Translations under genes and position numbers: made by a program
The notes under the pieces: generated by a model
What the model saw: only the letters and a program-made list of their open reading frames with translations
Database searches by the model: none
Told to the model about the DNA's origin: nothing
Part shown: positions 28,209 to 53,174 of the stretch, one piece after another
Numbering within the stretch: the first letter of the stretch is position 1
How the letters are laid out: every line of letters begins with the position of its first letter
Assembly: GCF_018320785.1 (NCBI RefSeq)
Contig: NC_054877.1
Span: 37,904,151-37,968,150, forward strand
Direction: 5' to 3'
DNA: 64,000 nt
DNA from: Cheilinus undulatus
Lineage: Eukaryota > Chordata > Actinopteri > Labriformes > Labridae

Positions 28209-28788
28209 TGTAAGGGTAGTATTCAGTAAGCTGTCCCTTATCAGGCAAGATGAAAGGCGCAGATGCCATAATCTGTTTTTTCCATTCCTCCGTGTGACAG
28301 AGAAAGAGGCTGTAATGTGGTTCATGTGGTTGTTTGAGATAAAATCTTGTTCTTGGTTATCTCTGGTTTTACTTGTCGTGCTGTATCATAGTCATAAACT
28401 TGTCCTTTTCAGTGTTTTAACAAAGTTTTTCACAGGTTTTATAAATAGTTAAAAGGCTTTGACAACGTTCCTGTTGCTGTTGGTTTCTAGTTTATTATAT
28501 AAATTAGACTGATGTTTTGATAGTGCATTATTAATGTTGATTAACAAACATTTTCACAGGAACCACTTCAGATGTTTCTTAGCAAACTGACACCCTTCAA
28601 ACATCAGATTATTTTAATATATTGCATTAAATAGTGTACATTTTATGATAGTAGCTAGTTAGCAGTTTATCAGAGAATAAAGCAACCTCATACAGTATGT
28701 CAGGCTTGAAAGTTTGACTGCATTTTTGGTAGCAAAGTTATTCTTCTTGCCTCTAATGCTGCTATTGTATCCCTGTCTCAGCTTCGTC

Positions 28789-31700
28789 ATGTCAGCCCTC
28801 GACAAAGTGAGATGTAATAAAACAGTAATTCAGTCCACTTTGTGTGGAGATCACAGGCTGATCCTCAACAAGGTTCATGAGAAGGGCCTGATCACTAAAC
28901 GCGAGTACAACAACCTGAAGAGCATCAACAAAGAAGACGTAGAAGGACACGTTGTGGAGCTGGTGGATAAGATCATGAATAAAGGAGAGGACAGCTGCCG
29001 GGCCTTTCTGCACCTGCTGCAAACTGATGAAGACATTAAAATGACGTATCCTGAGCTGAAGAGCATACAGCTGAACATTGCCAGCCCCTTACCTCTACCC
29101 ATCCAAGTTTCTTCACGTGATGACAAAGGTATGCTAACGTAGTTCTGATTGTGTCATTTATTCTGCATTTTAAGCCTTTTGCATGTCCACTTGTCTCTGT
29201 TTTATCTTAGGAGGTGTAATTCTGTTTCATTCTGATCTCCACAGATGTCCTGTCACCAGACAGAAAGAGGCCAAAGCAGGTGAGGGTTTCACTTCATTTG
29301 AAGTCATTTCACTTCAGCTTTATAATGCCTTTAAAACTCAATCAGAGGACAGGTTTTCCTGTCAAAACCAGGCTGTTAATATTAACGCGTTAACGCTCAT
29401 GATAAAGCTGGAAACCTTTACATGTTAAAAAAAAGTAATAATAATCATATGACTAAGTTGACCATAACTAGTCCTGTTGTCCTCCAGCATGGATGTTTAT
29501 GTGTCTGGGGGTAAAAAGGTGAAAGTGGTGAGTGAGGAGAGAGATCCAGGTCTGCTTAACGGTAAATTTAAATTCAAAAAGCTGCTGATTGGAAGCTTAG
29601 ATAAAAGTAATGTCTAAAAGTCACACAGTTGTGTGTTAGCAAAGAATAACACAGGATCAGACTGTGGTCTCCAAGCTACCCTGGCAGAGTCCAGCAGACC
29701 TGGATTTGTCCACAAAACGACAATAACTAAGCAAACTAATGGCATCGCTAAATGTGTCACCAAAAACTGCAGACCATCAAGACAGCCAGTTTATATTCAC
29801 TTTGCAGCAGAGGTTGTTTTGTACTTTATGTGTTCCTCTGCTGGCTAAATTAGCAGTTTATGGGTATTATTACTCAGAGAATTAAGATATTGTAATTTAC
29901 AAACCATTACAACTAAGCTGAGATGTTAAAGTTCAAAACTATAGTTTACCACATGTGTTCGTCTTTATCTCAAATCAAAATGCAAGTTAATTATTTTGAG
30001 AAGCAACCAGATCTCTATGGTTGGGCTTGTCTGATGCAGACCTCTATGATGGGATGACCTCGACTATGGGGCAGGAAGTGACGTGCTAACCCTTGGGTTT
30101 TCCTAAGTTTGTGGTGTTATTTTTATTTTTCATCCCCCTTCAGCTTACCCCAACCCTAACCTTTAGGGTGCCTAACCCTAACTCTCTTTGGGTTTTCCTT
30201 AGTTTGTGATGTGTTATTTTTATTTCTATCCCCATTTGCCTTACCCTAACCTTAAACTTTAGGGTTTAGGTGCCTAACCCTAACTCTCTTTGGGGTTTCC
30301 TAAGTTTGTGGTGTTATTTTTATTTTTATCCCCATTTGCCTTACCCTAACCCCAGCCTTTAGGGTTCAGGTGCCTAACCCTAATTCTTTTTGGGTTCTCC
30401 TTAGTTTGTACTGTGTTATTTTTATTTTCATCCCCCTTTGCCTTACCCTAACCTGAACCATTAGGGTTCTGGTGCCTAACCCTAACCCTCTTTGTTTTTT
30501 TCTTGGCGTGTTAAATGAAAATGTATTCCCCTTAGTGAATTTGTATTCATAACATTCTGCTGTTGTAAAAACAGCCACTTACCGTAACCTTTGGAAAATG
30601 TATGTCTTTCAGTATGCCATTCTGGTTCTGGCTTGGGTAATATACAGACCTTTGGACCGCCTGGTCGAGGTCGCCCCATTGTAGCAGATGAGCCCAAAAT
30701 ATCCCACCATAGAGGTCTGCAGTCAGATCCCGTTGAGTATTTTAAAATGTATGATTAAACTTGTGTTATCACATCATATTTATCTGATCTATCTAACTTA
30801 ATCATTTTTTAATCAATTACCAGCTATAATTATATTATCCTGTTTGAGGTGTAATTGCTGACATTTTTAGTCTCTAAATTGCTTTTATAATCAGGAATAG
30901 CATCTTGTGTCTGTGCAAAGTTCCAGTCTGACAGACAGGACTGGAAGTCGCATCGACATTTCACACAAAGTATCATGGGGGTTAGGAATAAGATGGATAC
31001 ACAAAAAATGTGTGACACCCGTAGTATTATAGCATATAATCTTAGCTTTGTAAAACTGCCGTCATGTAAAAAATGTAAACTAGGAGGAGCTTTTTCTTGA
31101 GTTAAAGCCCTTGCCTTTAAGTAAAAATGTTTTTTTAAAGTTTCTTCATTGTTGGTTTTAGGATGATCAGTATCAGTTGAACAGCCAACCCACTGGTCTC
31201 TGTGTCATAATCAACAATGAGAATTTCATGGATGGTGATGTGAGAAGGGGAACCAACAATGATGCTGGTATGTGACACATTGGATAGGCTTGAAAGTTTT
31301 CTGTTTCTGTAGTTCAAGTCTAACATGTTTTTAATTGATTTATCTTTAGAAAGTCTTGCAGAGGTGTTCAGCTGGCTGGGCTTCAGAGTGCTGATGTGCA
31401 AAGACCAAACCAAGGACCAGATGGATCAGACTCTGACATGCTTAGCCTCTCTGAGTGATCTCAGTCAACTGCATCAGCTGGACATTAAAGAGTGGTCTAA
31501 TAGTGGTTTTACTGATCTTCAGGGATCTCCTGAGCATGGAGATGCCTTCATCTGCTGCCTTCTGAGTCATGGCAGAAAAGGTGTAGTCTTGGGTATCGAC
31601 CGAGAGTCCCTCTCTATTAAACAAATAACTAGAACCTTCAAGGCCACTGACCAATCAGCTCTTACTGGGAAGCCTAAAGTGTTCCTGATCCAGGCCTGTC

Positions 31701-33897
31701 AGGGAGGACTGACACAGAGAGGAGTGTTACTAAGAGATCTGGAGGCTGATGACTCTCAGTCTCTGTACATCCCTGAGGAAGCCGATTTTCTAGTCGCCAT
31801 CGCCACTGTTGAAGATCATGCTGCATTGAGGCATACGATAGATGGAGGCTGGTTCATTCAGTCTTTGTGTGAGCAGCTGAAGGAGGGCTGTGTCAGGTAA
31901 TGTACAAAATAAATATTAATTCATGTACAAATTTGGTGGCCATTGCCTCTACAGCCACTAGTGTTGCTGTGATGTTTACTACCTTTTTTAAGGTTGAGAG
32001 TCACATAAATGTCTAGTGTCTGTCAAGTCCTCAGTTAAGACTTGTTGATTTATCAGCAACTATAGATAAAATGAAAGGCAAAAACCCTGAAGGATCTCTG
32101 GCCGTACCGTGCTATGTAGAAGTATTTGTCCCCCTCCAGATTTTTATTTTTATTTTTTTGCATATTTTTCACACTTAGATACTTTTCTGATCATTGATCA
32201 AATTTTGATGTTAGACAAAGATAACCTAAGTAAACCCAAAATGCTGGTTTTAAAAGCTGATTTATTTTTATGGGCAAAGCCATGCAAACCTACCTGGCCC
32301 AGCGTAAGAAAGTAATTGCCGCCTAAACTTAGTCATTGGTTGTGCCACTCTCGGGGCAACAACTGCAAGCAGGCGTTAAGATACCTGGGAATGAGTCTTT
32401 CACATTGCTGTGGAGGAATTTTGGCCTACTTCTTCATGCAGAATTATTTTAATTAAGCCACATTTGGGGATTTTTGAGCATGAATGGCCTGTTAAAGACC
32501 ATGCCATAACATGTAAATTGGATTTCAGTCCAGACCTTGGCCACTCTAAAACTTTCATGTTATTATTATTATTTTTTTTTTTTCAAGCCATTTAGAGGTG
32601 GACTTGTTGGTGTGTTTCGGCTCATTGCACTGCTGCATAGCCCGAGGCATTCTCCTTTAGGATTTTTACAGCAAGTCCTTCAGTTCCTGAACCATCACAT
32701 TTCAACTACCATGTTTGACTGTTGGTATGTTCTTTTTATGAAATGCTGTTAGTTTTACACCAGATGTAACGGGGGTGCAAAACATACAAAAAGATCAACT
32801 TTGTCTTACCAGTCCACTGAATATTTCTCCAAAAGTCTTGGGATCATCAAGATGTTTCTTGGCAGATGTGAGATGAGCTTTTGTGTTGTTTTTGGTCAGC
32901 AGTGGTTTTGGCCTTGGAACTCTGGCATGGATGCCATATTTCCCAGTCTCGTTCTTATCGTTGAATCATGAACACTGACCATAACTGAGTCAAGTGAGGC
33001 CTGCAGGTCTTTAGATGTGTCTCTGAGTTCTTCTTTGAATTTCTGGATGAATCGTTGATGCGCTATTGGAGTAATTTTTGGTAGACCGGCCACAGTTCAG
33101 CACTGTTCCAAGTTTTCTTCATTGGTGGATAATGGCTGTAGATGTGGGTTGCTGGAGCCCCAAAGCCTTAGAAATTGATTTGTAACCTTTTCCAGACTGA
33201 TAGATGTCAGTGACTTTGTTTCTCATCTGTTCTTGATTTTTTTAGATCATGGCATGATTATGTGTTGGCTTTTGAGCCCACTTTTTAGCCTACTTCATTT
33301 TGTCAGACAGGTTGTGGTTTTTTTATTCAAAAGGTCTGGCAGTAATCAATCAAGAGTGTAACCAGTGAAACTGAACTCGGCTTTCAAAAAATGTGGTTGA
33401 TCATAGTTTACTTATGATTGAACACGGGGTGAATATGATTCAGGGGGAGTTTAGTGTACTACTTTCCATGTAACAGTAATATGTTGTTGTGGGTTTAATG
33501 TTAATGCTAGTTTTTGTCTAATGTTAGCTCGTGGGCTGTCAACTATGTTGTAACTTGAAGTAGAGTCAAATGTCAATCTGGATTTTAGTTCAGTTACATT
33601 TTCTGATGCTGACCAGTCAAGGAAAAGTAAAAGTTTTTGTAAAATGTTTGACTTTAAGCTTGGAAAAATGATGTGAGTTTTCTGACCTGATGATGACATG
33701 AAAGGGAAATGACTTCTAGTACCAATTTTTTTGTATTTGTGTATCTCAGGGGTGAAGACATCACCACTATCCTCCACCATGTGAATGATGAAGTGGGGCA
33801 GAGAGAAGGTTCCGTTCAACCTGGCAAAATAAAGCAGATGCCTGAAGTCAGATTCACCCTGAGGAAGAGACTTGTGTTGTCACCACATCACAACTGA
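28789..33897 (+). CDS. CARD-containing caspase-8-like initiator protease
   Basis: Five exons join in phase into about 391 aa: 28789-29128, 29245-29279, 31162-31267, 31350-31896 and 33750-33897. The first exon encodes a CARD (about residues 1-95; LILNKVHEKGLITKREYNNL, FLHLLQTDEDIKMTYPELK). The rest is a caspase domain closest to caspase-8: NSQPTGLCVIINNENF, catalytic His in FICCLLSHG, catalytic Cys in KVFLIQACQGG, an inter-subunit linker with a possible LEAD cleavage site, then EEADFLVAIATV, WFIQSLCEQL and C-terminal FTLRKRLVLSP. Teleosts are known to have a CARD-bearing caspase-8 paralogue; this fits. The ATG at 28789 follows an acceptor at 28780, so a 5' non-coding exon is expected, perhaps ending at 25946. 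The last intron holds a Tc1 relic. It should be active; its CARD partner is unknown. Confidence 0.85.
30030..30712. mobile_element. Inverted-repeat element containing a minisatellite
   Basis: The left arm tctgatgcagacctctatga and the right arm caccatagaggtctgcagtc are inverted copies; a second matching pair (gacctcga / tcgaggtc) lies farther in. Between them lies a ~100-bp tandem repeat. Target duplication not clear. It lies in the intron between the second and third CARD-caspase exons. Confidence 0.5.
30092..30500. repeat. Minisatellite, about four units of ~100 bp with telomere-like motifs
   Basis: Units begin with gggttttcctaagtttgtgg-like text near 30,095, 30,190, 30,292 and 30,392. Each contains ttatttttatttt, atccccatttgccttacc, and several ccctaac or ttaggg words ending cctaaccctaactctcttt. 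The telomere-like words are part of the unit, not a pure telomeric array. Confidence 0.75.
32105..33460 (-). mobile_element. Tc1-like transposon relic
   Basis: The minus strand resembles the copies at 41,589 and 60,866: AGLPKITP, TSKDLQASLDSVMVSVHDST and the words aaagtcttgggatcatcaagatgtttctt. The left terminus is near gctatgtagaagtatttgtccccct. Frames are broken, with a T-rich expansion at 32,570. It lies in the last intron of the CARD-caspase gene. Confidence 0.65.
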
Positions 33898-37480: not shown

Positions 37481-39075
<1,595 letters not shown>

Positions 39076-39762: not shown

Positions 39763-42700
39763 TCAAACATACTTGAGGACGAGCTTCCTGGTGAGGGTGT
39801 ACTTGGGCTCAGGCATTTGTTTATAGTTTAAAAAAACTCCCTTGCTGACCTCTCTGTTCACTCGTGTCAGCACAGAGAGGATATCATCCATTTCTGGGCT
39901 GCAAAGAAAACAGCAGAAAGACATTAAATTAGACACCTTGTTTCATGCTGGTGTTTATTTCAAGAAGATTACATACATCATTTAAGGAGGTGAGAGGTCT
40001 GCTGTGTTAGAGCTGATGTAGATCCTGATGTGTAACTGCAAATAAAGACTTGTTGATAATACTTTTACAGAATAGTCAATTTGAAATAACTGTGAGAAGT
40101 CAACCACTGTTACATGAATAACTGTTGTAAAAACTGGTCAACACTTTTAAATTCATAAAGGATTGTGACATAAGGCATTGAGTTCTCACACTTTACGAAA
40201 GGAGTTGTTGCGCCTGGTATCAAAGACTGACTTAGCTCACAAAACCTTTGGCTAAACTGTGGCTACAGATTTAAAAGGCTTGATTTTTAAGAGTGTACAG
40301 AGTCATCTCTCACCTCTCTGCTGATCTCTGAAGCTGCCTGCACAGCTCCTGGATGTAGATGGAGCCGTTTACAGTGTGTCTGAATGTCTTGCACTTGGGC
40401 ACGGTGGCCATACCCAGCAAGAAGTCAGCGTCCCAGGGCACTGTCTCCTCTCGCACACGACTAGGGCCTCCCAGGCAGACCAGCATCTGCCTGGAGGAAG
40501 ATGCTGTGTGCCCACAGATGTTGGTCTGCCTAGAGACAGATGCTGTTTGCCTGCAGATGCTGGTCTGCCTGGAGACAGATGCTGTGTACCTGTCCATCTG
40601 TTTTGGGGTGGGGGGAATTTGTACAGCACCTTCCTGGAAGCTGTTTCCCTGGTTCGCTTGGATAAAGAAGAGTTTGGGCTTCCCTATCAAGGTGGGGACA
40701 TTCCTGCTGGTGAAAGGCTGTGTAAGATCTTGGATTTCTACCTGCAGCTCATCAGTGCCAAAGACAACTCCCTGTTCTCCATGAGACAGCACACACACTA
40801 CCTGAGGAAAAAAAGGCCAACATATTTCAAGAAGGAAATTTATGGCTAAGGCTTAACAACAACATTAGTTATGCTGGCCAAAGACTACACCATTTTTAGG
40901 CCAGATTTGCCTCCCCCAATGATCATGGGGTGTATCCCAAGTGGAGGCTCATCACACATGATTGTTTGTCTGAATAACCTCCAAGTGTGGTGTCAACATA
41001 ATAATCTAACTGCTCCAAATCACGACGTATCCTTCCAGACCCAGATCAGGTTTGATACAGTTCTAGGTCTTGGAGGCCCTTTCATCTCAGAGAGATAGAA
41101 GAGCAGCTTTTTATATTAGTTTCTTGTTACAGGACCGTGAGAAAAGTGTTTGGCCTTTAGCTACTCTACTTTATGGTTTATATCTACATAATACAAGATT
41201 ATGGTGTTAAAACTCATGATGAATTTTAAAAGGGAAAAAAGAGAGGAGAGGGACTGTTGCTGCCTCTCTGAATAGTCAATCAACTGTTTAAATGACTGGT
41301 ATGGACACGAAAAAAAATCAAGACTGTTCCAAAACATGATGACTGGCACAACATAAGATCAAATTTCTTTTTTGATGTGCAGCATTTTTTGACTAAAAAA
41401 GCTGGATCAGTTCAACAGTTTTAATCCTGAAAATCATGGGGAAAGGCTATCCTGCTCCACCTAATAAAAGATAATCGGCTTTGTAGCATCTCTAAAGCCC
41501 ATTAAGGTCGATGTATAAACTTGCCTATTTAGCCCTTAATGAAAATGTGAGTTAATCAAGGTTTAAAATAATTCATCTGCACTTTATACAGTGCTGTGAA
41601 AATGTATTTGCCCACTTTCTGATTCCTGAGTTTTTTGCATATTCATCACACTTAAATATTTTGGATCATCAGACCAATTTTTATATGTCACAAAGACAAC
41701 CCAAGTAAATACATAATGCAGTGTCTGAATGGTTATTTAAATTTTTAAAGGGGGGGTCATATGCAAAAAAGTAATTGCCCCCTTGTTAAATCATGAGTTA
41801 ACTGTGATTAACCACAGTTGCATCTGGAAAACCTTCATGACTAAGCGTTTGGGAAAGGGCAGAGGCTTTGAAAAAAATTCGGAGGGTGACTGGATGAACG
41901 TTCTGTTCATCACATCTTTACGGGCCAATCAGAGCAACAAAATATGTGACGTAGCCGCAACTGAGGTGCCCATGCACAGCTACCAAGGAATAACATGAAC
42001 CATAGCGACTATAGGCATGTAAGTACATGACTTTGTTGTTTTTGAAAAGAAAACAACTCAATGCTGTTCTTTGTTCTTCTTTTAATGAAAAAAAGTTGTC
42101 AAGTCCTGATAAAACTGGCGCAAAGCTCTTCTGCCATAATTATCTATCTATTTATTTATTTATTTAATTTAACCTTTATTTAACCAGGAGAACAACCTCA
42201 TTGAGATTAAAAATCAGCAGCTCAGTCAAAGTTACAGACAAAAAAATGAGTAAACATACAAGTAAGTAAATTGCGCTGGCCTCTTGTTGCTGCTTGCTTG
42301 CTTACGTCACGACTCTGCTGCACCTGAAAGTACTGCCTCTCGTCGCTGATTGGTCCTGTCACTTTCTAACCGGCCCAAATGGTTCAGACGGGAGCTTTGC
42401 AAGATGGATTCGCCAGTGAGAAACAAGGAAACGGGCGTATCCATCTGCTTTTCAAGGTTACATCATGACACGAGCCAAAGAAATTCAAGAACAAATGAGA
42501 AACAAAGTGATTGAAATCAGTCTGGAAAAGGTTACTAAGCCATGTCCAAGGCTTTGGGACTCCAGTGAACCACAGTCAGAGCCATTATCCACAAATGGAG
42601 AAAACTTGGAACAGTGGTGAACCTTCCCAGGAGTGATCGGCCAACCAAAATTACTCCAAGAATGCAACAACAACTCATCCAGGAGGTCCCAAAACAACAT

Positions 42701-45700
42701 CCAAAGAACTGCAGGCTTCACTGACCCCAGTTAAAAAGCACATATTGTGCAAAAATCATTTTTTTAGACTTTTCTAACAAGTATCTTTGCACCTGGCTTG
42801 TCCACAACCCCCTCAAATACCAGAAAAATCCATTCCCTTACACCCTATCTTTCTCCACATTTCAGAAAATGTGTGCTGAAACAAGCCGTTCTCTGATTTT
42901 CCCCTCATGATTTCCCCACATGAAATCTTATAAACTTGTCTTAAAAGGGTAAAATATGTCCCCTCAGAGGTCATGACTCAACCGCAAGAAAGACACTGGG
43001 CAAAAATTGTATCATGGGAGAGCTCCAAGGCCAAAACCACTGCTGACAAAAAAGAGCACAAAGGCTCATCTCACATTTGCGAAGAAACATCTTGATAATG
43101 CTAAAGACTTTTGGAGAAATAATCTGTGGACTGACAAGACAAAAGCTGAACTTTTTGGAAGGTGTGCGGCCTGTTATGTCTGGCATAAAAATAATAGCAT
43201 TTGACAAAAGAACATCATGTGATTGTCTGGGGCTGCTTTGCTGCTTCAGGACCTTGACCATTTGCTGTGATTGATGGAACAATTAATTCTGCTGTCTACC
43301 AGAAAATCCTGAAGGCCAGCATCCAGCCATCAGTTTGTGCTCTCAAGTGCTCTTTGGTTACGCGGCAGGACAAGACCCGAAACATACCAGGAGGTCTACC
43401 TCTGAATGGCTCAAGGAAAACAAAATTCAGGTTTTAGAGTGGCCAAGTCAAAGTCTGGACCTAAATGCAACTGAGGTGTTTTGGGGGTGACTTTAAACGG
43501 GCAGTTCATGCTGGAAAACCCTCCAATATGGCTGCGTTAAAACAATTCTGTGAAGAAAAATGGGTCAACATTCCTCCACAGAAATGCGACTCATCACCAG
43601 TTATCACAAACACTTGATTTCAGTTATTGCTGCTAAGGGAGGCACAACCAGTTATTAGGTTCAGGGGGAATTACTTTTTCACATAGGGCCCGATAGATGT
43701 TGTTGTTTTGCCCCCTAAAAAAATTAAATAATCATTCGGACAATGCATTCTGTATTTACTTGGGTTGCCCATGTGAAATATAAAAATTGGTTTGATGATC
43801 TGAAACACTGAAGTGTGATAAATATGTAAAAACTCAGAAATCAGAGAGGGGGAAAATACTTTTTCACAGCACTGTAGGTACAAATATTACTTATTCATTC
43901 AACATAAAAACTGTCTTCCAGAAAACTAAATTAAATTTATGTATGAAAAAAGAGGAAATGGTTGATAGCCTGTGATAAATGTAAGCTTGTCTTGCACTGC
44001 TTTTCTGCCATTTAAGTTCCAGCGTTAACCTCTACTGTTAACTCACTGAGGGAGGCTGGAAGATGAGGTTTCTTGTTACTCACCAATTGCATTATTTTGT
44101 TATTCTAGTAATACATAATGTCTTTTTCACTATTCTGTTTATTCATAATTGTTGTCGAGGTAGTTAAATAAAAAAATAACCATATATGTGAAATGCTTAC
44201 CAAGCCATCATCCTCAGAAAAATCTCTCTTGCTCAGGTATTGCACCTCTTGTCTCATGGCGTCTGCTGTCAGGTTGCTATGAACCACCACAGTGAAGCCA
44301 AATCGGCTAAACAATTGGCACAGGGCCTCTGCATCACATAAGAAAGGGAGAAAAAAAAAGGTAAGAGTAACAGATTATTAACATTTTACAAAAAGATTGC
44401 AACATATTAGATGTTGGAGGCTGAAGTCTGTACGATTTTGGGTTTGGAGCTAGAGGCTCACCAGTTCATGTCCTGAGATATCAATGCACTTCTTTCATAA
44501 ATAAACAATATTGTTCTTATAAAGTGAAGTGAAAACCATTTTAACATAAGTCTGTGCATCACCATTTATCATCGTTTCACACTCAGGTAGCTTGCAGTGA
44601 GTCCACCTTAAATGGATGTAGCGTTATGGCTAATAATCAAACCTTAAAAGCAGCATACTGAAAGCACAGTGGCTGATAAGAGACAGTAGGAAAGGTGTAG
44701 TGTCTTACACCTCCTGCTTCCCAGTCGGTGCGTAGGTAGGTAAGAAGGAGGTAGGTAGGACTGGCCACAACATTTGGTATAAGGAAGGTAACTTATTTTT
44801 GATTATTTTCATAAATAACAACATTGACTTTAAATAATCAAACTGGCATTTAAAGAGCTGTTTGCTATTTTTGAGCAGGGCTTAGGTTATTTAGGAGATT
44901 TATGCAAAAAGGAGAAAAATATTAATCTGTTAAGTTATTATAGCAGTTTCATTTTGTTCTTAATGACTCAGGAAGATAGTAAATTAAAGACCCTGTAAAG
45001 TGAAATCCAAAAGTTGTGTCTTAACACTCTAGATATGTTGGAATATGGTTGCTCTAAACATGTGAAAACACTAAGAAATAAAGTTTTTCACCTCTTTCCT
45101 GGCAGGGTGTAATTTGGGCAGGGCAAATATGTGGGCTGGTGATGTCACAATTTGTTTCTGTTCACTGTGAGGTAAATTTGCCAAATCTATCAGCCACAGT
45201 GGTCTATGGATCATTTAAAGCAACATAGAGATTTAAGCCAGAAAGCAGACTTTGGCTGTTTTTGAATTGGCCTACTGCATACTCCTGCCACACGCAGTAT
45301 GCAGTATGTATTGTGCGTACTACGTTTGATTGTAGTATGCAGTATGACTGCCAGTCGGACGTTATTGTGCGGTATGCTTGGCCCGGTTTAGCCGGTTTCC
45401 GGTATACAGAAGTACGTCATTTAAGTACTGGTCAATATTAAACAACACTACAGTGTTTTCCATCAATTTACGTACAGAAAAAAATCTGGGAAGTGTTTTT
45501 ATTAGATTTTTCGGGATTTTTATAGCTGTTGGTTTTAGCTTAGCATGTATAGTGCAGTGAAACACACTTGACAGCACCTTTTCGGCCATTACGAGCCGTA
45601 ATGTTAAAACAAAAACAACAGTGACCTTATTAGAACTTGTTTCACTGTAGTACATGTTAAAAAGGTAAAGATAAAAGGTAATGGCACTTTTTTTAACCGT

Positions 45701-48700
45701 CAGCCGCTCCGGTGAATGTTCCGCCTGGAGTTGTAAAATTGGTGGTTTTTCCCTACAAAAACCTGGTCAGAATTCATCCTGCTCGCTAGGAAAACTTGGT
45801 GCACCTGAGATGGCTGCTCCCAGCTGACGGCTGCTTGTAATCAGCAGGCCTGAGAGGTTATATGGAGTAGGTTGGGTGTTTAGTAGAGCTGACTGTGAGG
45901 AACAAGAGACTCAGCAGCTTAAGTTGATTTCTTTGAGTTTGGGTTTGAGTGCTAATTTGTGTGAGTGTGGGGGAATTTTTTAAAAATCATTCCTTTTTTA
46001 CTTATTCCGTAATCATTTTGGTTTTTGTGCAGTTTTTGCTGGTGTCCACAATTATGACCTTTGTTATAAATTTAGTGTTTTCTGGAGGATCAGCAGGTTT
46101 GTTTCATGTCTTCATATAGGTATAAAGACCTGACAAACACTCCTGAAGCTATTGTTCTGAACTGCAGGAGTTGGAGAAGGGTTGACTTGCTTGGATTTGT
46201 CTCTGTTTTGTCCTTTCATGTGGATTTTTGTGCTTCTACCGTGGGTTGGTAACCTATTTATAAATAAATGCACTTTCTCTTGCTCCTCTGACTGGCTCTG
46301 CTACACCCGTTATGGTGTTTTTTGATGTAGTAAAGTAAAATTCAATCTGGCATTTGTCTGGTATCAACACAGAGTATTTTATTCTGAAATTTAAGCAGAT
46401 ATTTTAATAACGTTTCAGGGAACCTTCCTGCCCCTCTTCATCTGCATCTAGGGATGGGTACCTTTCACATTTGAACTGGTACGGTACCGATTCCCGGTAC
46501 CGTACCGTTCAGACTGCCAGAGCTCTGATAGAGCAGGGACGGGAATCTGCTCCATGCCTGTGGCAGACCAGAGAGAGTGAACACATATCTGGTGAAATTT
46601 AGGGGTTAGTATGTCATAATTATCCATGTAAAGGAAACCTTAAAACAGTTAAGTAAATCAACTTTGTTGTGGTGCTAATTTGATAGCAAGAATCCTACAT
46701 TCAAGAAAGCAGAGCAGGACAGAAGCAAGGGACATTAAACAGTAAGAGACACACTGATCAGACCTCATGCTGAGTTATGAGAAGCACTTCTTTGGCTCTA
46801 CAAAGAAATATTGACTTCTTTTCTTTTAGTTTGTGTTATCCAAATCTTTTGATAGAAGTTAGAGGGAGAGGGAAGTGTGTTATTTTAAAACACTCCCCTC
46901 TCTGTGAGGACCATCTATGACCATTCGATGTTACACTTGGTGCACTCGGAGTAAATTTAAGCCTCAAAGTCAGTCAAAGCTAATATGGACGTAGGAGATA
47001 AGACTGACTTTATTTAGGCACAGGTGGTGCACTCTGCCTCTGGAGTGTGCTGTCCGAAAGTTTTCTATTTGTACACTACTACATTTGGGGTGTTAATGCA
47101 CCATGACAAGACAACTTCAGGGTATATTTAATAATACTTTGTGTTAAAGTTGATGTTAGTTCTGAAATGGAGAAATTCATACCCTCATCCATCTTGGACC
47201 CTCTTCGCCTTCCCATCCCCATCTGAAATTCCTCGTTGTTGAAGATCACACACAGACCACGGGGGTTATGACTCAGGTCATAATAATCCGCCTAAAGAGC
47301 AAAAACATGACCACAAAGACAAATCTTAACATTTTAACATTTTTTGAAACATAATGTTGATTGAATGTTAGTGTGTGAGTGATTACTGGGTCATAAAGGG
47401 AAGGACTCTCTGTTACTGGATCTGAATCAGTGTACACAATCTCTCCCCCATCTGAAGAACAAAAACAGAGCACACTTGTATTTCTTATATGTATCAGATA
47501 AAGATTAAAGTACGGCAGTGGAAAGTATAGGGCTTTTAAGCTGTAAACTAGCTAGTAGGTGTAATTAATCGATGACCGTGCCAATAGAAGAAGATGTCAG
47601 AGAGACTTACGGCTGGGCTGAGACTCAGTCACAGGCAGAGAGGGCTGAACCAGCGGAGGATTGTTGTTGATCCTCTGTGGAAAGAAAAGAAAGTTCTCAG
47701 TAAACTGTCTCATTATTGGGCCTACTGTTAAGCACATAGACATTCAGACACAGACATCTACCTGGTGATCCATGCTGACATGAGGAGGTACTTCAGGCTC
47801 AGTTAATCCTGAAAGACAACAATCATTGACAAATGTTATCTAAATATTACATTTGATGCATTTGTGTGCTGAAGTTTGTATGATACCTTGCATGTAGCGC
47901 TCTACTGTTGTTGCCAGTTGTCGGTCAAACTCCTGCAGTGTTTCATGCAGCACATCCAGTTTTCGGTTAGACAGTAAACCAGTCCTTTCCATTTCAGCAA
48001 ATAAGTCCAGTGGTGTCTGTAAGTAAGAGAGAAGAGTGAGTAGAGGTAAAGAGCTCTCCCTGTACAGAAATAAATAAATAAAGTAACATGCTAGAAGTAG
48101 AACAGTCCTTCGGCCCAGCTCAGTATTTATGTTAACCAAATATTGCTAGCAATATAAAAAACAGAGCAGAAAAGAGATAACTTCGTGCAGCAACTTGGTT
48201 GTATGCTTCCTAAGTGGCACAATACATAAATAAATCAAATATCACATAAGTGACCAAAACTATCAATAATCCACATGCAACTAGAATGTGGCCATTTCAA
48301 GAAATTGCAGTGTGACAGCATGACCCACTACCACTGCTGCTGGAGCCTCAGCTGCTGCCTTCAGTGGAATATCTACATTTAAAAGCTGCAGCTAAAAGAT
48401 TTGTAATCCTAGAACACCAACTGCAGGGGAGCTCCAATCCTTCTCCTGGAACAAAATTAGAAAAAGAAATACTTAAACTTCAGTCTTGAAAAGTAAGCAG
48501 TCTGCATCAGCCTCTGTTATGGATCTTGTGATTGCTGAGCTGAGGTAATAAAGCAGCTGCACTGGTGTGACTTCAAAATGCCATATTTGACTCATTTAAT
48601 GCATCATACTAAGCTCTTTCTTTGCTATGATTATTATTTCAATTAGGAAATATTGAAATTGGAGGAGGATTAGGGATACCTTCGAAGGAGAAAATAGTTT

Positions 48701-51700
48701 TAGGCAAGTCGAGATTCAAGTAAAAATTATGAGAAAGTTGAAACTTTCTATTATAAACAGTGGGTCTAGACACCGTTTATGTGCTAAAGAGAAAAAAATC
48801 TCTTTGTTGTTAAATCCAATAATGAGGCAAGTTTCACATATTCATCAATAAAAGGCATAAAGAAATTTGTAGTGACAGTCAAGATATTGTGTCATTGTCT
48901 TAAATACTCATACATCAACAAGAGGGACATAACTGCACTCATGTCTCTCTTCCTCTCTGTCTGATCACCTGTAAAGAGGCACAGGTGACAGGCTCAGCCT
49001 CCATACATGATGGGAGAGCGAGGGGAGATTGATCACTCGTTTAATCATCATGGACAGTTTGCTGCAAATGACAAAATGTTTTTTAAAAAAAAGCGAACAA
49101 GGAACGCTTTGGCACATGTAAAAAGATTTATGTTGAAGTTATTTATCCCACCACAACAAACACTGATCAATAAACGAGTTATCAGTTTCCTTTTACTCTC
49201 CCATTACTGAGGTAGAGTCTGTCACCTGTGCATCTCTACAGGTGATCAGATGGAGAGGAAGAGGAAAAGAGATGGAAGCTGTTATGTCTCCTCTGTTACT
49301 GTGCAATATTTAAGACAATAACTGAGAATCGTGACTGAATGCCTTATGCCTCATATCAATGAATATGTGAAAATATACCTCATTATTGGATTTAACAACA
49401 AAGAGATTCTTTCTCTTAAGCACATAAATACACCATGTCTAAGATCTACTGTTTCTACCTTTTTCTCGTCATTTCAAATTTAATCTCGCCATTGTATTTC
49501 AACTTTATTCTCGAAATTCTTTATTCTAGTCATTTCGGTTTTATTCTCAAATTGCCCGAAATTATTTTCTCATTCAAAGGCGTCCCTAATCCTCTTCCAT
49601 AAAAGTCAATCTTTTTCAAAGATGTCCCTCTTTTTGCCCAAACGTCTCGTGAGTTAGATGACATCTGCTGGAGAGCCGGAAGTTTGACTCCACCAATTTA
49701 GATGCTTGTTTTCCAAACTAATCTGTACATGTTTATTTGAAATAACCTTTACAACAGCCCCTAGTTTAAGTTTCTAAGATTAGATTGGGGCTGTTAAACA
49801 CCACAGAGAATCATGCTTTAATTTAGCACTCTTTTGCTCTCTCTCTCTACTTATTCACTTGCTACTGTTTGATATGCTTTTCCTTTAGCATGCACATTTA
49901 TAAATACTTTGCCACGTCTGCTGTGCCACACAGCAAAAGAGGCGTAAAAAGCAATCGACACCAAACTTTGTGGGCATGTTAGATCAGTGATAAGTGATAA
50001 GTGATAAGTGATTTTTTCATGGATCTGGCTATTTGTTGCCATGTAAAAAGGTTTCCCTGAAATTGCTGATCACTGTCACAGGTAAGTAATAATATTGGCT
50101 ATGAAGTTTTGAAAGCTCAAACCTTAACAAAAAAGGTGATATTATGATCTTGTTATCCTGATGAAAATAAAAGAAAATAAAAATCTTTTTTTCTTTTAAA
50201 CCTGTAAGATATTTAGCTTTTATTCATAAATTCATACTGTGACATCTCCATATCACCATGTCTTTTAGATCTGTAGATATGTTAGTATGAGCTCACCTTA
50301 CATAACTCAAGTTTTCTTTTTTCCAGCTTGCCGCTTGGATGACTGTCCAGCAGAAACTTCATCTTGTCAAAATTATACTGATTCAAGTCCTGATGAATTT
50401 CATACAGCATCACCCTGATAGAAAGAGCAGAGGCGTGGAAAGAAAGCAAATGAGTCAGCTCTGGAAATCACACAGATTGCATAATAATTTGCCATGCTGT
50501 TGAACCTTGAAGTTATAGTAGAGCTCACGTGTAAGCAGACAGCCTGTGGGCTGCATTACTTTCTTCTAATCCCTTGCTGTCTGTCTCAAGCTGACTGAGG
50601 AGGTCTGCTCGATTGATTGTGCGCAGCAACTGAGAAAGAAAAAAAACGTCCCCCATCAGACCTTTCTCTTCTAGTCTCAGGAAAAGATCTTTAGCATAAT
50701 GGACCTGTAAGAGAATGACCAAAAGACACAAGAAGAAAACCATGAGAATTTAATGGTTTAGAACCAAAATCTGAATCAGAATTGGGTTTTATTGCCAAGT
50801 ACATTTTCACATAAGGAATTTGACTTGGTGTGATTTCCAATGCAATCAGTGACAATATGAGGGCAATTATGTTTAAAAAATACATCTACACTGCTCAAAA
50901 AATAAAGGAAGCACTTAAATAACACATCCCAGATGAGAACAAAATAACACAAGAACGATCAATGGAAACCAGAATCACTAACCCATGGAGGACTGGATTC
51001 AGAATCATGCTCAAAATAAAAGTGGAAAAATCAGATCACAGGCTGATCCAACTTCTGTGAAATTTCTAAAGACAACTCAGGATCAGGCTCAATAGTATGT
51101 ATGGCCTGCTTGTGCCTGTATGCACTCCCTACAACATCTGAGCATGCTCCTGATGAGACGACCGGTGGTCCCCTGAGGGGTCTCTTCACAGACCACAATC
51201 AGGGCATCAGTCAGCTCCTGGACAGTCTGTGGTGGGACGTGGCAGCAGTGAATGGATCGAGACATGATGTCCCAGAGGCGCTCGATTGAATTCAGGTCCG
51301 GGGAACGGGCAGGCCAGTCCATAGCATCAGTGCCTTCGTCATGCAGGAACTGCTGACACACTCCAGCCACATTAGGCCAAGAATTGCCATCCACCAGAAG
51401 GAACCTCAGGCCCGATGCACCAGCATATGGTCTGACAATGGGTTTGAGGACCTCATCTGAGTACCAGTCAGGGTACCTCTGGCTAGCACATAGCGGTCTG
51501 TGCGGCCCTCCAAAGATATGCAGTAATTCCCCTACCATTCTATTGGGAGGGTGCCCCCCCCCCCCCCCGATGATCATTTTATCATTTTAACATTCATTCA
51601 TCTGGGATCAATAAACTGGTGGACGGCCCCTTTTGTCCTTTTATTCCTCACATACATGTTTCTCATAGCGCCTGACGCTATTGGTGATATTTATGATCGT

Positions 51701-53174
51701 TATTTACGCTCGTAAATAAACCTCATCCACGTGCAGATTACGACAGAAACTCTTCAACCTTTATAAACGTAGGGGTGTTGACAAAAGATCACACAGGCAT
51801 AGAGACAACAGGAGATGGAGACATGCATGTGTGTGGAGAAGAGAGAAAAAATGAGTAGATAAAGTCAGTGGAGGACAATCAATCAGAACATTCACCAAAA
51901 TACAAAATCTTACCTACTGTATATGTTATATGTTACAATAAACGGTTTTCCTAAATAATATGTTTTGCTTGTTTTTAGTTAAATCTTTCAGATGTCAGAC
52001 TCATTTGTATGTGGGGAGGCCTTTTAGACAGCATAGGAAAACTTTACACTTAATATTGGTCTGATACGGTCCTAAAGTTACTCCTGATGTGGCAGGATGG
52101 CAAAAAAGTTCATTTCCAACTCTGTCATTCACACATGCATAAATAAATAATTATAGATAGATAGAATCTTACATTGACAGCTGGAATTTAAAGTAATCAC
52201 ATGATCACCATGATTCCTGTAAGTGTTTGTGTTGGTGTCTGCCTAACACCCCAAGGCTATAAACCTAGGGGAAACACTGGATATGACTCACTGACCCACT
52301 GCCAAACTGCTCCTGCTGGAAGATGTTGCAGGCAGCAGAACGTTCTCACAGTGTCTCCAGACTCTCTCTCTCTCTCTCTTCCACCTGTTGTCTGTCCCAT
52401 TTGTACAACAGCAGGTGAATCAGTGTTGCTTCCAAACTGGACAGAAGTGTTATTGACTAGGAGCTGCATTGTGATGATTATGTGTTCCCCCTATTTTTTA
52501 AGCAGTGTATTTCACCAGTTAGTCTTCATTCCATAAAATTCAATCACATTTTTTTATTTTGAGTTTCAATAAAAAGAAATTGGCCCAGAAAAATTGTGTG
52601 AATAAACTAAGTTAACCTATAAATTGGTTGGAAGCTATTTTCTGCAACTAATAGTAACATGTTATTGTTATTATTACTGCTTACTCTATCACTACTCTTC
52701 TACTCTTTCTCTACTCTTACATTCTGTTATTACTTTTTTGCATTGATATTTTATGTATTTTAAATCTAATTTTTACCCATTCAAATTGAGCAAACTAACA
52801 TAACATGTTCCTTGTTTGCACCACCATTTACTAGAAACAATAAACGCCATATTACCATTTCTAGTTTTCCAATTTTGTCTTGAATTTTTCTTTTCAAAAA
52901 TCATGAACAATAACATTACACAGGGAGACAAATGGTGAAAACTACATTTTGACTTTGCAACCCTTTAATGGGGTAAAAATTCAGAGGCTATCTTAAGTGT
53001 AATACTGACTTTTTCCTCAGGCAGGGTCTCAGGAAAACTGCAGTTTATAGAGTATGTGGTTTTTACCTCCTCTAGCTGTCTCTTGCTGATAATATTACGA
53101 CACAAGAAGCACAGAGCCGCCACCTCAGATGAATCCAGCTCCTCGTTTAGACAGGACAGCTTCACCCGGTCCAT
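39763..53174 (-). CDS. Tandem-DED caspase-8/10-like protein with Cys-to-Asn active site (predicted pseudoprotease)
   Basis: Eleven coding exons join in phase into about 522 aa without a stop: 53067-53174, 50529-50704, 50297-50414, 47887-48016, 47762-47808, 47611-47674, 47387-47451, 47183-47291, 44201-44328, 40314-40801 and 39763-39898. DED1 (residues ~1-80; [14 protein letters not shown] holds the RxDL motif) and DED2 (~97-175; [20 protein letters not shown]) are followed by a linker and a caspase domain: [15 protein letters not shown], catalytic His in [11 protein letters not shown], then [13 protein letters not shown], where Asn (40652-40654) replaces the catalytic Cys. The small subunit has [22 protein letters not shown] and [11 protein letters not shown]. 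The inter-subunit linker contains a 39-bp tandem repeat. Length and layout equal caspase-8. It may be a casp8/casp10 paralogue or a cflar-like regulator; activity by cysteine catalysis is not expected. Confidence 0.85.
40491..40605 (-). repeat. In-frame 39-bp tandem repeat in the caspase-like coding exon
   Basis: On the plus strand, units start at 40,491, 40,530 and 40,569 (ctggaggaagatgctgtg, ctagagacagatgctgtt, ctggagacagatgctgtg). Each is 39 bp, so 13 residues; the protein units read [26 protein letters not shown] and [13 protein letters not shown]. The array lies between the QANQG site and the small subunit. Confidence 0.8.
41589..43874 (+). mobile_element. Tc1-like transposon with inserted sequences, inactive
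   Basis: The ends cagtgctgtgaaaatgtatt and actttttcacagcactg are inverted repeats flanked by TA (41587-41588, 43875-43876). Transposase text is visible from about 42,480 (agaaattcaagaacaaatg) to 43,620, with multiple frame breaks. Foreign sequence occupies about 41,815-42,460, including a LINE/SINE tail with tatcta/ttta repeats at 42,140-42,250, and about 42,735-42,960 (a MITE-like piece starting aaaagcacatattgtgc). It lies in a caspase-like intron. Confidence 0.7.
44340..47180. other. Caspase-like intron with dispersed repeats
   Basis: No exons. At about 45,180-45,260, cagtggtctatggatcattt is a repeat also present near 59,440. At 45,270-45,350, copies of agtatgcagtatg and tactgcatact resemble a common fish MITE end. 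At 46,447, ctagggatgggtacctttc plus ggtacggtaccg is one end of a hAT-type element; the other end was not found. Confidence 0.4.
48660..49599. repeat. Long inverted repeat (fold-back element), about 940 bp
   Basis: The left arm (48660 to about 49000) starts tggaggaggattaggga. The right arm (about 49210 to 49599) ends tccctaatcctcttcca. Corresponding inner words include taatgaggcaagtttcacat versus tgtgaaaatatacctcatta, and tctgatcacctgtaaagagg versus ctctacaggtgatcaga. The centre (about 49,002-49,208) is unique and has no recognised gene. It lies in the intron between the two DED2 exons of the caspase-like gene. Confidence 0.7.
50889..52507 (-). mobile_element. Tc1-like transposon, inactive
   Basis: The ends cactgctcaaaaaataaagg and ctattttttaagcagtg are inverted repeats flanked by TA (50887-50888, 52508-52509). 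The minus strand 51,089-51,577 encodes the C-terminal part of a DDE transposase ([20 protein letters not shown] with the second acidic region, [20 protein letters not shown] with the third). A poly-C run at 51,557-51,568 disrupts the frame. Foreign DNA from about 51,590 to 52,190 (starting near tcatctgggatcaataaa, with a tagatagatag run near 52,155) looks like a nested LINE tail. It lies in the first coding intron of the caspase-like gene. Confidence 0.75.

Follow-up and report, generated by a model that had tools for sequence, protein, structure and literature searches.

Can a caspase-8-like gene that has lost its catalytic Cys persist as a functional gene and, if so, in what capacity? The question is raised by a locus in a stretch of 64,000 nucleotides (hereafter the window; C13:37904151-37968150, from one genome assembly that, by its gene content, is taken to be of a teleost fish) that contains such a gene, which we refer to as gene A. 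Its paralogue, gene B, is situated just past the end of the window.

Structure and Active Site of Gene A

Gene A was rebuilt from the sequence as 11 minus-strand exons, from position 53174 to 39763, that join in phase to give a CDS of 1569 nt and a protein of 522 residues (Table 1). The marks of a pseudogene (stops, frameshifts and broken splice sites) were looked for across the CDS and its 10 introns and none was found: there are no premature stops or frameshifts and all 10 introns are GT-AG. Pfam identified two DED stretches (7.3e-35) and a Peptidase_C14 domain covering profile positions 1-232 of 233 (3.8e-52). The rebuilt model and the Pfam matches agree with the initial annotation, which had claimed eleven exons joined in phase without a stop, both DEDs and the whole caspase fold.

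Exon 10 (488 nt) coincides exactly with the coordinates that were first flagged. As had been claimed, its sequence retains the catalytic His in LSHG and reads FIQANQG, without the Cys of the QAC(R/Q/G)G motif, the codon at that place being AAC. The additional claim that AAC is two positions from either Cys codon holds for TGC (two positions) and not for TGT (three). The Cys codon of gene B is TGC with matching flanks (CAAGCGTGCCAGGGAA vs CAAGCGAACCAGGGAA), and the difference between the genes is a clean TG/AA exchange. The predicted product of gene A is a caspase fold without the catalytic residue, that is, a pseudo-caspase by definition, and would be expected to lack protease activity.

Other functional positions are retained. 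RADLL in exon 2 is an RxDLL-type DED motif, and KFLL in exon 3 corresponds in position to the human F122/L123 patch. The Arg of RRGS, the Gln of FIQA and the Arg of TFRHT, presumably the S1-pocket residues, are all present in gene A, and YTLTRKLVL in exon 11 presumably corresponds to the strand at the C terminus of caspase-8 through which the enzyme dimerizes.

Table 1. Features of gene A and of the neighboring card-casp8 gene, in window coordinates.
Feature	Position	Strand	Remarks
card-casp8 (casp20)	28681..33897	+	CARD exon and caspase exons, QACQG intact; Pfam CARD, Peptidase_C14
card-casp8 caspase pieces	31313-31900, 33697-33897		Splice joins putative
Exon 11	39763..39898	-	Small-subunit end, YTLTRKLVL C-terminal strand, stop codon
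Exon 10	40314..40801	-	LSHG, QANQG, expanded linker, small-subunit start
39-bp tandem repeat	40486..40587	-	2.6 copies, in frame, inter-subunit linker
AAC (Asn365)	40652..40654	-	Place of catalytic Cys codon
Catalytic His codon CAT	40781..40783	-	Retained
Exon 9	44201..44328	-	Caspase large subunit
Exon 8	47183..47291	-	Caspase domain start; RRGS Arg kept
Exon 7	47387..47451	-	Linker with VYTD|S
Exon 6	47611..47674	-	Linker
Exon 5	47762..47808	-	Linker
Exon 4	47887..48016	-	DED2 second half
Exon 3	50297..50414	-	DED2 first half; KFLL kept
Exon 2	50529..50704	-	DED1 second half; RADLL (RxDLL-type) motif kept
Exon 1	53067..53174	-	Start codon, DED1 first half; donor gtaaaa; aligned with gene B

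An Intact Sister Gene in Inverted Orientation

An intact casp8 elsewhere in the genome, which had been suggested as something to look for, is present as gene B at C13:37969304-37978353. This gene lies on the opposite strand to gene A and has 11 matching exons, 490 residues and an intact QACQG; the two genes are arranged head to head with their start codons approximately 12 kb apart. Alignment of their DNA gave 12 pieces of 72-90% identity that include exons and several intron stretches. Since the two genes have the same exons on opposite strands and can be aligned in both exons and introns, we conclude that they arose by a local inverted duplication. Over 251 aligned columns their caspase domains are 72.5% identical. 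When the genome was searched with exon 10 of gene A, the 13 matches comprised gene A itself, gene B, which matched as two separate pieces at 64% and 76%, and remoter caspases, the next match by score after A and B being a gene on C15 (52%).

The introns of the two genes differ at 15.3% of 1889 aligned bases, with introns 7 and 9 lacking any alignment, and gene A has far longer introns 8 and 9 than gene B has. Divergence is uneven along the genes: introns 4-5 are about 98% identical where aligned, exons 5-6 are about 95-96% identical and intron 6 differs by 8%, in contrast to introns 3 and 8, which differ by 12-22%. Window positions 47611-47842 and the matching C13:37974843-37975074 may thus mark a tract over which gene conversion between A and B took place. 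Intron 4 is 975 bp in gene B and 78 bp in gene A, and in gene B it contains an inverted repeat (about 220 bp, with 85% identity) at 69783-70705 in window coordinates, past the window end.

The inter-subunit linker is a further point of difference. Gene B has LEED|A in this linker, which we take to resemble the self-cleavage sites of caspase-8, and it is at this place that the 39-bp repeat of gene A stands. A DNA search of the genome, in which simple repeats and very common words were skipped, matched that repeat at this place only. Before the PWDAD of the small subunit, LEED|A is absent from gene A and a single Asp is left, in KQMD|R, presumably an unlikely cleavage site given the preferences of caspases. 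Gene A may encode a protein that cannot be split between its subunits. The linker of this genome's own cflar contains LETD|G, and gene A has no such site in its linker. Between DED2 and the caspase domain of gene A, VYTD|S is a possible caspase-8-type cleavage site.

Assignment to Casp8

The order of genes on C13 is card-casp8, A, B and an MCM gene (C13:38012688-38013926), which lies approximately 34 kb past gene B with other reading frames between and accounts for 4 of the 28 MCM matches found with Pfam. From a motif in its translation we take this gene to be mcm6. Genes A and B are assigned to casp8 because they are flanked by card-casp8 and mcm6, the two genes between which PMC1903365 places casp8 in other teleosts, namely medaka and fugu. 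In the fish studied in PMC1903365 and PMC2779465, casp10 and cflar are placed away from casp8 and on chromosomes distinct from each other. Casp10 was the label considered first for gene A and was dropped because card-casp8 and mcm6 flank both genes.

A tree was constructed from seven caspase-domain rows, including A, B, the CFLAR of this genome, human FLIP, human CASP8, a casp10-like gene on C15 and card-casp8. Genes A and B grouped together (100/100), as did the genome's own CFLAR and human FLIP (100/100), apart from A and B; the tree did not order human CASP8, the C15 casp10-like gene, card-casp8 and the A/B pair relative to one another. The casp8 label for genes A and B is accordingly based on synteny, as sequence alone does not prove casp8 over casp10, and the identities to the caspase domain of human CASP8 (48.5% for the C15 gene, 39.6% for A and 42.5% for B) count against it. 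Elimination leaves the tandem-DED caspase located at C15:41.83 Mb as the likely casp10. The gene at C15:47.28 Mb has human c-FLIP as its best solved-structure match (149 bits vs 57 for caspase-8) and is identified as cflar. These two C15 genes are about 5.4 Mb apart on one chromosome, unlike the arrangement in the fish described in PMC1903365 and PMC2779465.

The initial annotation had offered two alternatives for gene A, a second, independently inactivated caspase-8/10 paralogue or a divergent cflar, and had named a tree placing it inside cflar as evidence against its reading. Gene A fell outside the FLIP clade. The first alternative is upheld by the pairing of A with B, the separate position of the FLIPs and the casp8 synteny; the second fails, in that the cflar on C15, and not gene A, pairs with human FLIP. 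Since gene A is a local casp8 duplicate outside the FLIP clade, its loss of the catalytic Cys is a separate event from that in cflar.

Conservation and Selection

For columns of the caspase domain that are invariant among the C15 casp10-like gene, card-casp8 and human CASP8 (78 in total), changes occurred in A only at two (L282F and C365N), in B only at three (D308N, D385S and V518I) and in both at 14. Similarly, of the 46 DED columns at which two outgroups have the same residue, one was changed in A only, two in B only and 12 in both. Polarization assigned 23 caspase-domain changes to A and 15 to B, with 31 left without assignment, and part of the 23 derived residues of A sits in poorly aligned linker; the corresponding DED values were 10, 8 and 28. 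At the level of sequence, gene A keeps the family pattern as well as the intact gene B does, except for the nucleophile.

The pairwise dN/dS between A and B was 0.57 over 490 codons (dS 0.274), with values of 0.81 for the DED exons, 0.60 for linker exons 5-7 and 0.46 for the caspase exons. Exon 10 has the highest dN (0.27), and exon 11, which encodes the C-terminal strand, has the lowest dN/dS of the 11 exons (0.12). Nonsynonymous changes made up 4 of 12 in exon 11 versus 156 of 223 in exons 1-10 (rounded counts; Fisher p=0.021), a comparison based on few changes. In exons 1-6, dS is lower than in exons 7-11 (p=0.0003).

Codon models gave results that depended on how the A and B branches were treated. 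With four genes, free branch lengths and 239 columns, omega was 0.40 for A and 1.02 for B, and omega of A equal to 1 was not rejected (p=0.25). We attribute the wide separation of these two estimates to the saturated outgroups, with which the branches of A and B are poorly told apart. Setting the two neutral branch lengths equal is reasonable because the copies reside in the same genome and date from a single duplication, and under a clock model with this setting (226 gap-free columns) A had an omega of 0.505 and B one of 0.533; a value of 1 was rejected for A (p=0.024) and for B (p=0.035), and equality of the two was not (p=0.91). If the clock is granted, A and B are near-equally constrained.

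The intact frame of gene A was also compared with neutral expectation. With the CDS of B as a stand-in for the ancestor, neutral evolution since the duplication would have produced approximately 5.8 stops at 0.137 substitutions/site, with zero stops in 0.2% of 2000 runs, or 3.9 stops at the lower intron rate of 0.085, with zero in 2.1%. Frameshifts would number approximately 14 per lineage, based on blastn gaps in introns, of which 36 of 42 are indivisible by three. Neither a stop nor a frameshift is seen in gene A. By our estimate from these rates, A can have been free of constraint for no more than about 15% of the period after the duplication, an estimate of a kind that gene conversion could distort. 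The Cys could have been lost late, with most of the open-frame history of gene A preceding the loss. Support for the earlier claim that selection keeps the frame open comes from the clock model and from the lack of the stops and frameshifts that neutrality would predict; the free-branch model did not reject neutrality of A.

Other Features of the Window and Genome

Telomere-like CCCTAA/TTAGGG-rich repeats occupy window positions 30120-30500, where they separate the CARD exon of card-casp8 from its caspase exons. Reading frames at 37805-38813, 42977-43490 and 51120-51590 resemble remains of Tc1-like and other transposases. A minus-strand frame at about 15760 has a WSDWS-type cytokine-receptor motif and is perhaps an interleukin receptor exon. 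Elsewhere in the genome, a 75-kb region (C4:36949823-37024865) has 11 of the 41 caspase-domain matches and represents an expanded caspase cluster; some of its matches have internal stops, which are probably introns. The RHIM profile had one match in the genome (C13:22414248-22414313), and so short a profile may miss others. Scanning genome-contig and viral-contig collections with exon 10 of gene A gave 21 and 22 pattern matches, respectively, of which tblastn confirmed none.

Alternative Explanations for Gene A

Since the evidence comes from one assembly, the AAC codon might be an artifact of sequencing or assembly. We judge this very improbable, as two neighboring bases are exchanged between flanks that match those of B, the exon 10 linker of A also differs from that of B, and the 1.17-Gb genome is assembled in 46 contigs, from which we infer that long reads were likely used. 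The tandem DEDs and Cys-less caspase domain would fit a divergent cflar too, and the chance of this is close to nil: the tree sets A apart from the genome's own and human FLIP, a separate cflar is present on C15, and A has His and Asn where both FLIPs have Arg and Tyr. Moreover, it is 72.5% identical to B over the caspase domain, and its best solved-structure match is caspase-8, with no FLIP chain among the best 60 of 117 matches at 1e-20. A young pseudogene, in which selection ceased recently and the Cys was lost first, too early for stops to have accumulated, is a more substantial rival that we nonetheless consider unlikely. Copies of casp8 can be redundant, the dN/dS of 0.57 could also be obtained from one constrained and one relaxed copy, and neutrality of A is unrejected without the clock. 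Against these points, about 20 disabling changes would be expected had A been neutral since the duplication and none is seen, the omega of A equals that of B under the clock, and two substitutions in one codon within at most about 15% of the time are improbable unless they were one dinucleotide event.

Gene A might instead be a natural scaffold-only caspase-8, comparable to the laboratory C362S form and serving NF-kappaB/cytokine complexes or as an ASC/inflammasome platform, with B as the protease and the two roles divided by subfunctionalization. This is conceivable, if doubtful, given that A has DEDs and a caspase fold without the Cys and that nearly all invariant columns kept by B are also kept by A. 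Work on mice supplies arguments on both sides: according to PMC8036737, enzymatically dead caspase-8 shows scaffold effects and is also harmful. FLIP-like pairing accounts for the constrained dimer strand and the absent linker site no less well than a scaffold does. Somewhat better than even, in our judgment, is the prospect that gene A encodes a second FLIP(L)-like pseudo-caspase regulator of caspase-8. We propose such a role because the layout of A is like that of FLIP(L), the dimer strand is kept, no LEED-like site is present and an intact sister gene adjoins. Among the points against it are that the genome already has cflar, that A is more derived than B (23 vs 15 residues), that exon 10 has the highest dN, that the low dN/dS of exon 11 is drawn from about 12 changes, that neutrality of A was not rejected with free branch lengths and that the Cys could have been lost late.

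Proposed Role of Gene A and Comparison with Known Systems

The local inverted duplication of teleost casp8 produced the divergently oriented copies A and B. Gene B kept the protease residues, and A lost the catalytic Cys and has no LEED site like that of B. What A retained are its two DEDs, the catalytic His, the residues of the S1 pocket and, most markedly, the dimer strand at the C terminus. Under the FLIP-like reading, the A protein may co-assemble through its DEDs with FADD and procaspase-8 (B, perhaps casp10) and may use its small subunit to pair with B, and it would thereby tune the amount of active, releasable caspase-8 homodimer that is formed. The steps from sequence to function are inferential, and both heterodimerization and the direction of any effect on death signaling are predictions by analogy. 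The analogy is with FLIP(L), which, according to PMC7586951, is without the critical Cys and joins procaspase-8 through its DEDs and (pseudo)caspase domains. Depending on their ratio, it speeds or blocks procaspase-8 processing, and it prevents full release (PMC7586951).

Compared with teleost casp8, represented here by B, gene A shares the locus (card-casp8, mcm6), the 11 exons, two DEDs, the caspase domain and the His, along with the S1-pocket Arg, Gln and Arg; unlike B, it has Asn for Cys and a repeat-filled linker without LEED|A. Like A, c-FLIP(L)/CFLAR is a tandem-DED pseudo-caspase, and we would expect A to pair with caspase-8 as well; the two differ in origin, and A has the His and the pocket, and Asn where FLIP has Tyr at the Cys position. 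From our alignment, we take the conserved Arg and Tyr of FLIP to be at the catalytic His and Cys positions. Caspase-12 is not known to have tandem DEDs. A conserved Arg and Tyr in cFLIP are described in PMC7586951, and cFLIP and caspase-12 are both named as known pseudo-caspases in PMC11121540. Caspase-12 is predicted to be inactive and proposed to modulate an active relative (PMC11121540), as we propose for A, although it belongs to the inflammatory caspase group. The mouse C362S/C362A caspase-8 is, like A, a full caspase-8 without the nucleophile, but it is an engineered allele of the sole casp8, whereas A occurs naturally, alongside an intact sister gene. Zebrafish casp8b resembles A in being a lineage-specific casp8 duplicate on the casp20 chromosome; according to PMC5965869 it has no DEDs, its caspase domain is very similar to that of casp8a and it is specific to the zebrafish lineage, whereas A has DEDs. 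Among the papers listed in searches of the openly licensed literature, judged by title and the beginning of the abstract, none concerns a full-length fish casp8 duplicate without the catalytic Cys, which is weak evidence of absence.

Taken more broadly, gene A may mean that tandem-DED pseudo-caspases have arisen twice, independently, among vertebrates. It would then be a caspase-8 copy disarmed by the change of one residue and lacking its sister's linker site, with pocket and dimer face kept, and would serve B as an allosteric partner or as a scaffold that holds substrate; we consider the chances of this evenly balanced. The c-FLIP lineage is old and has diverged from the caspases over the whole domain, and the steps by which a caspase became its own regulator are therefore hidden in it. 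The A/B pair appears to show an early stage of such a change, as A is nearly all caspase-8 except for the nucleophile and the linker, and it would let one test which changes suffice to turn a protease into a regulator. It would also allow a test of whether caspase-8 has had its scaffold and protease roles, which engineered alleles separate in mice, divided naturally between two genes.
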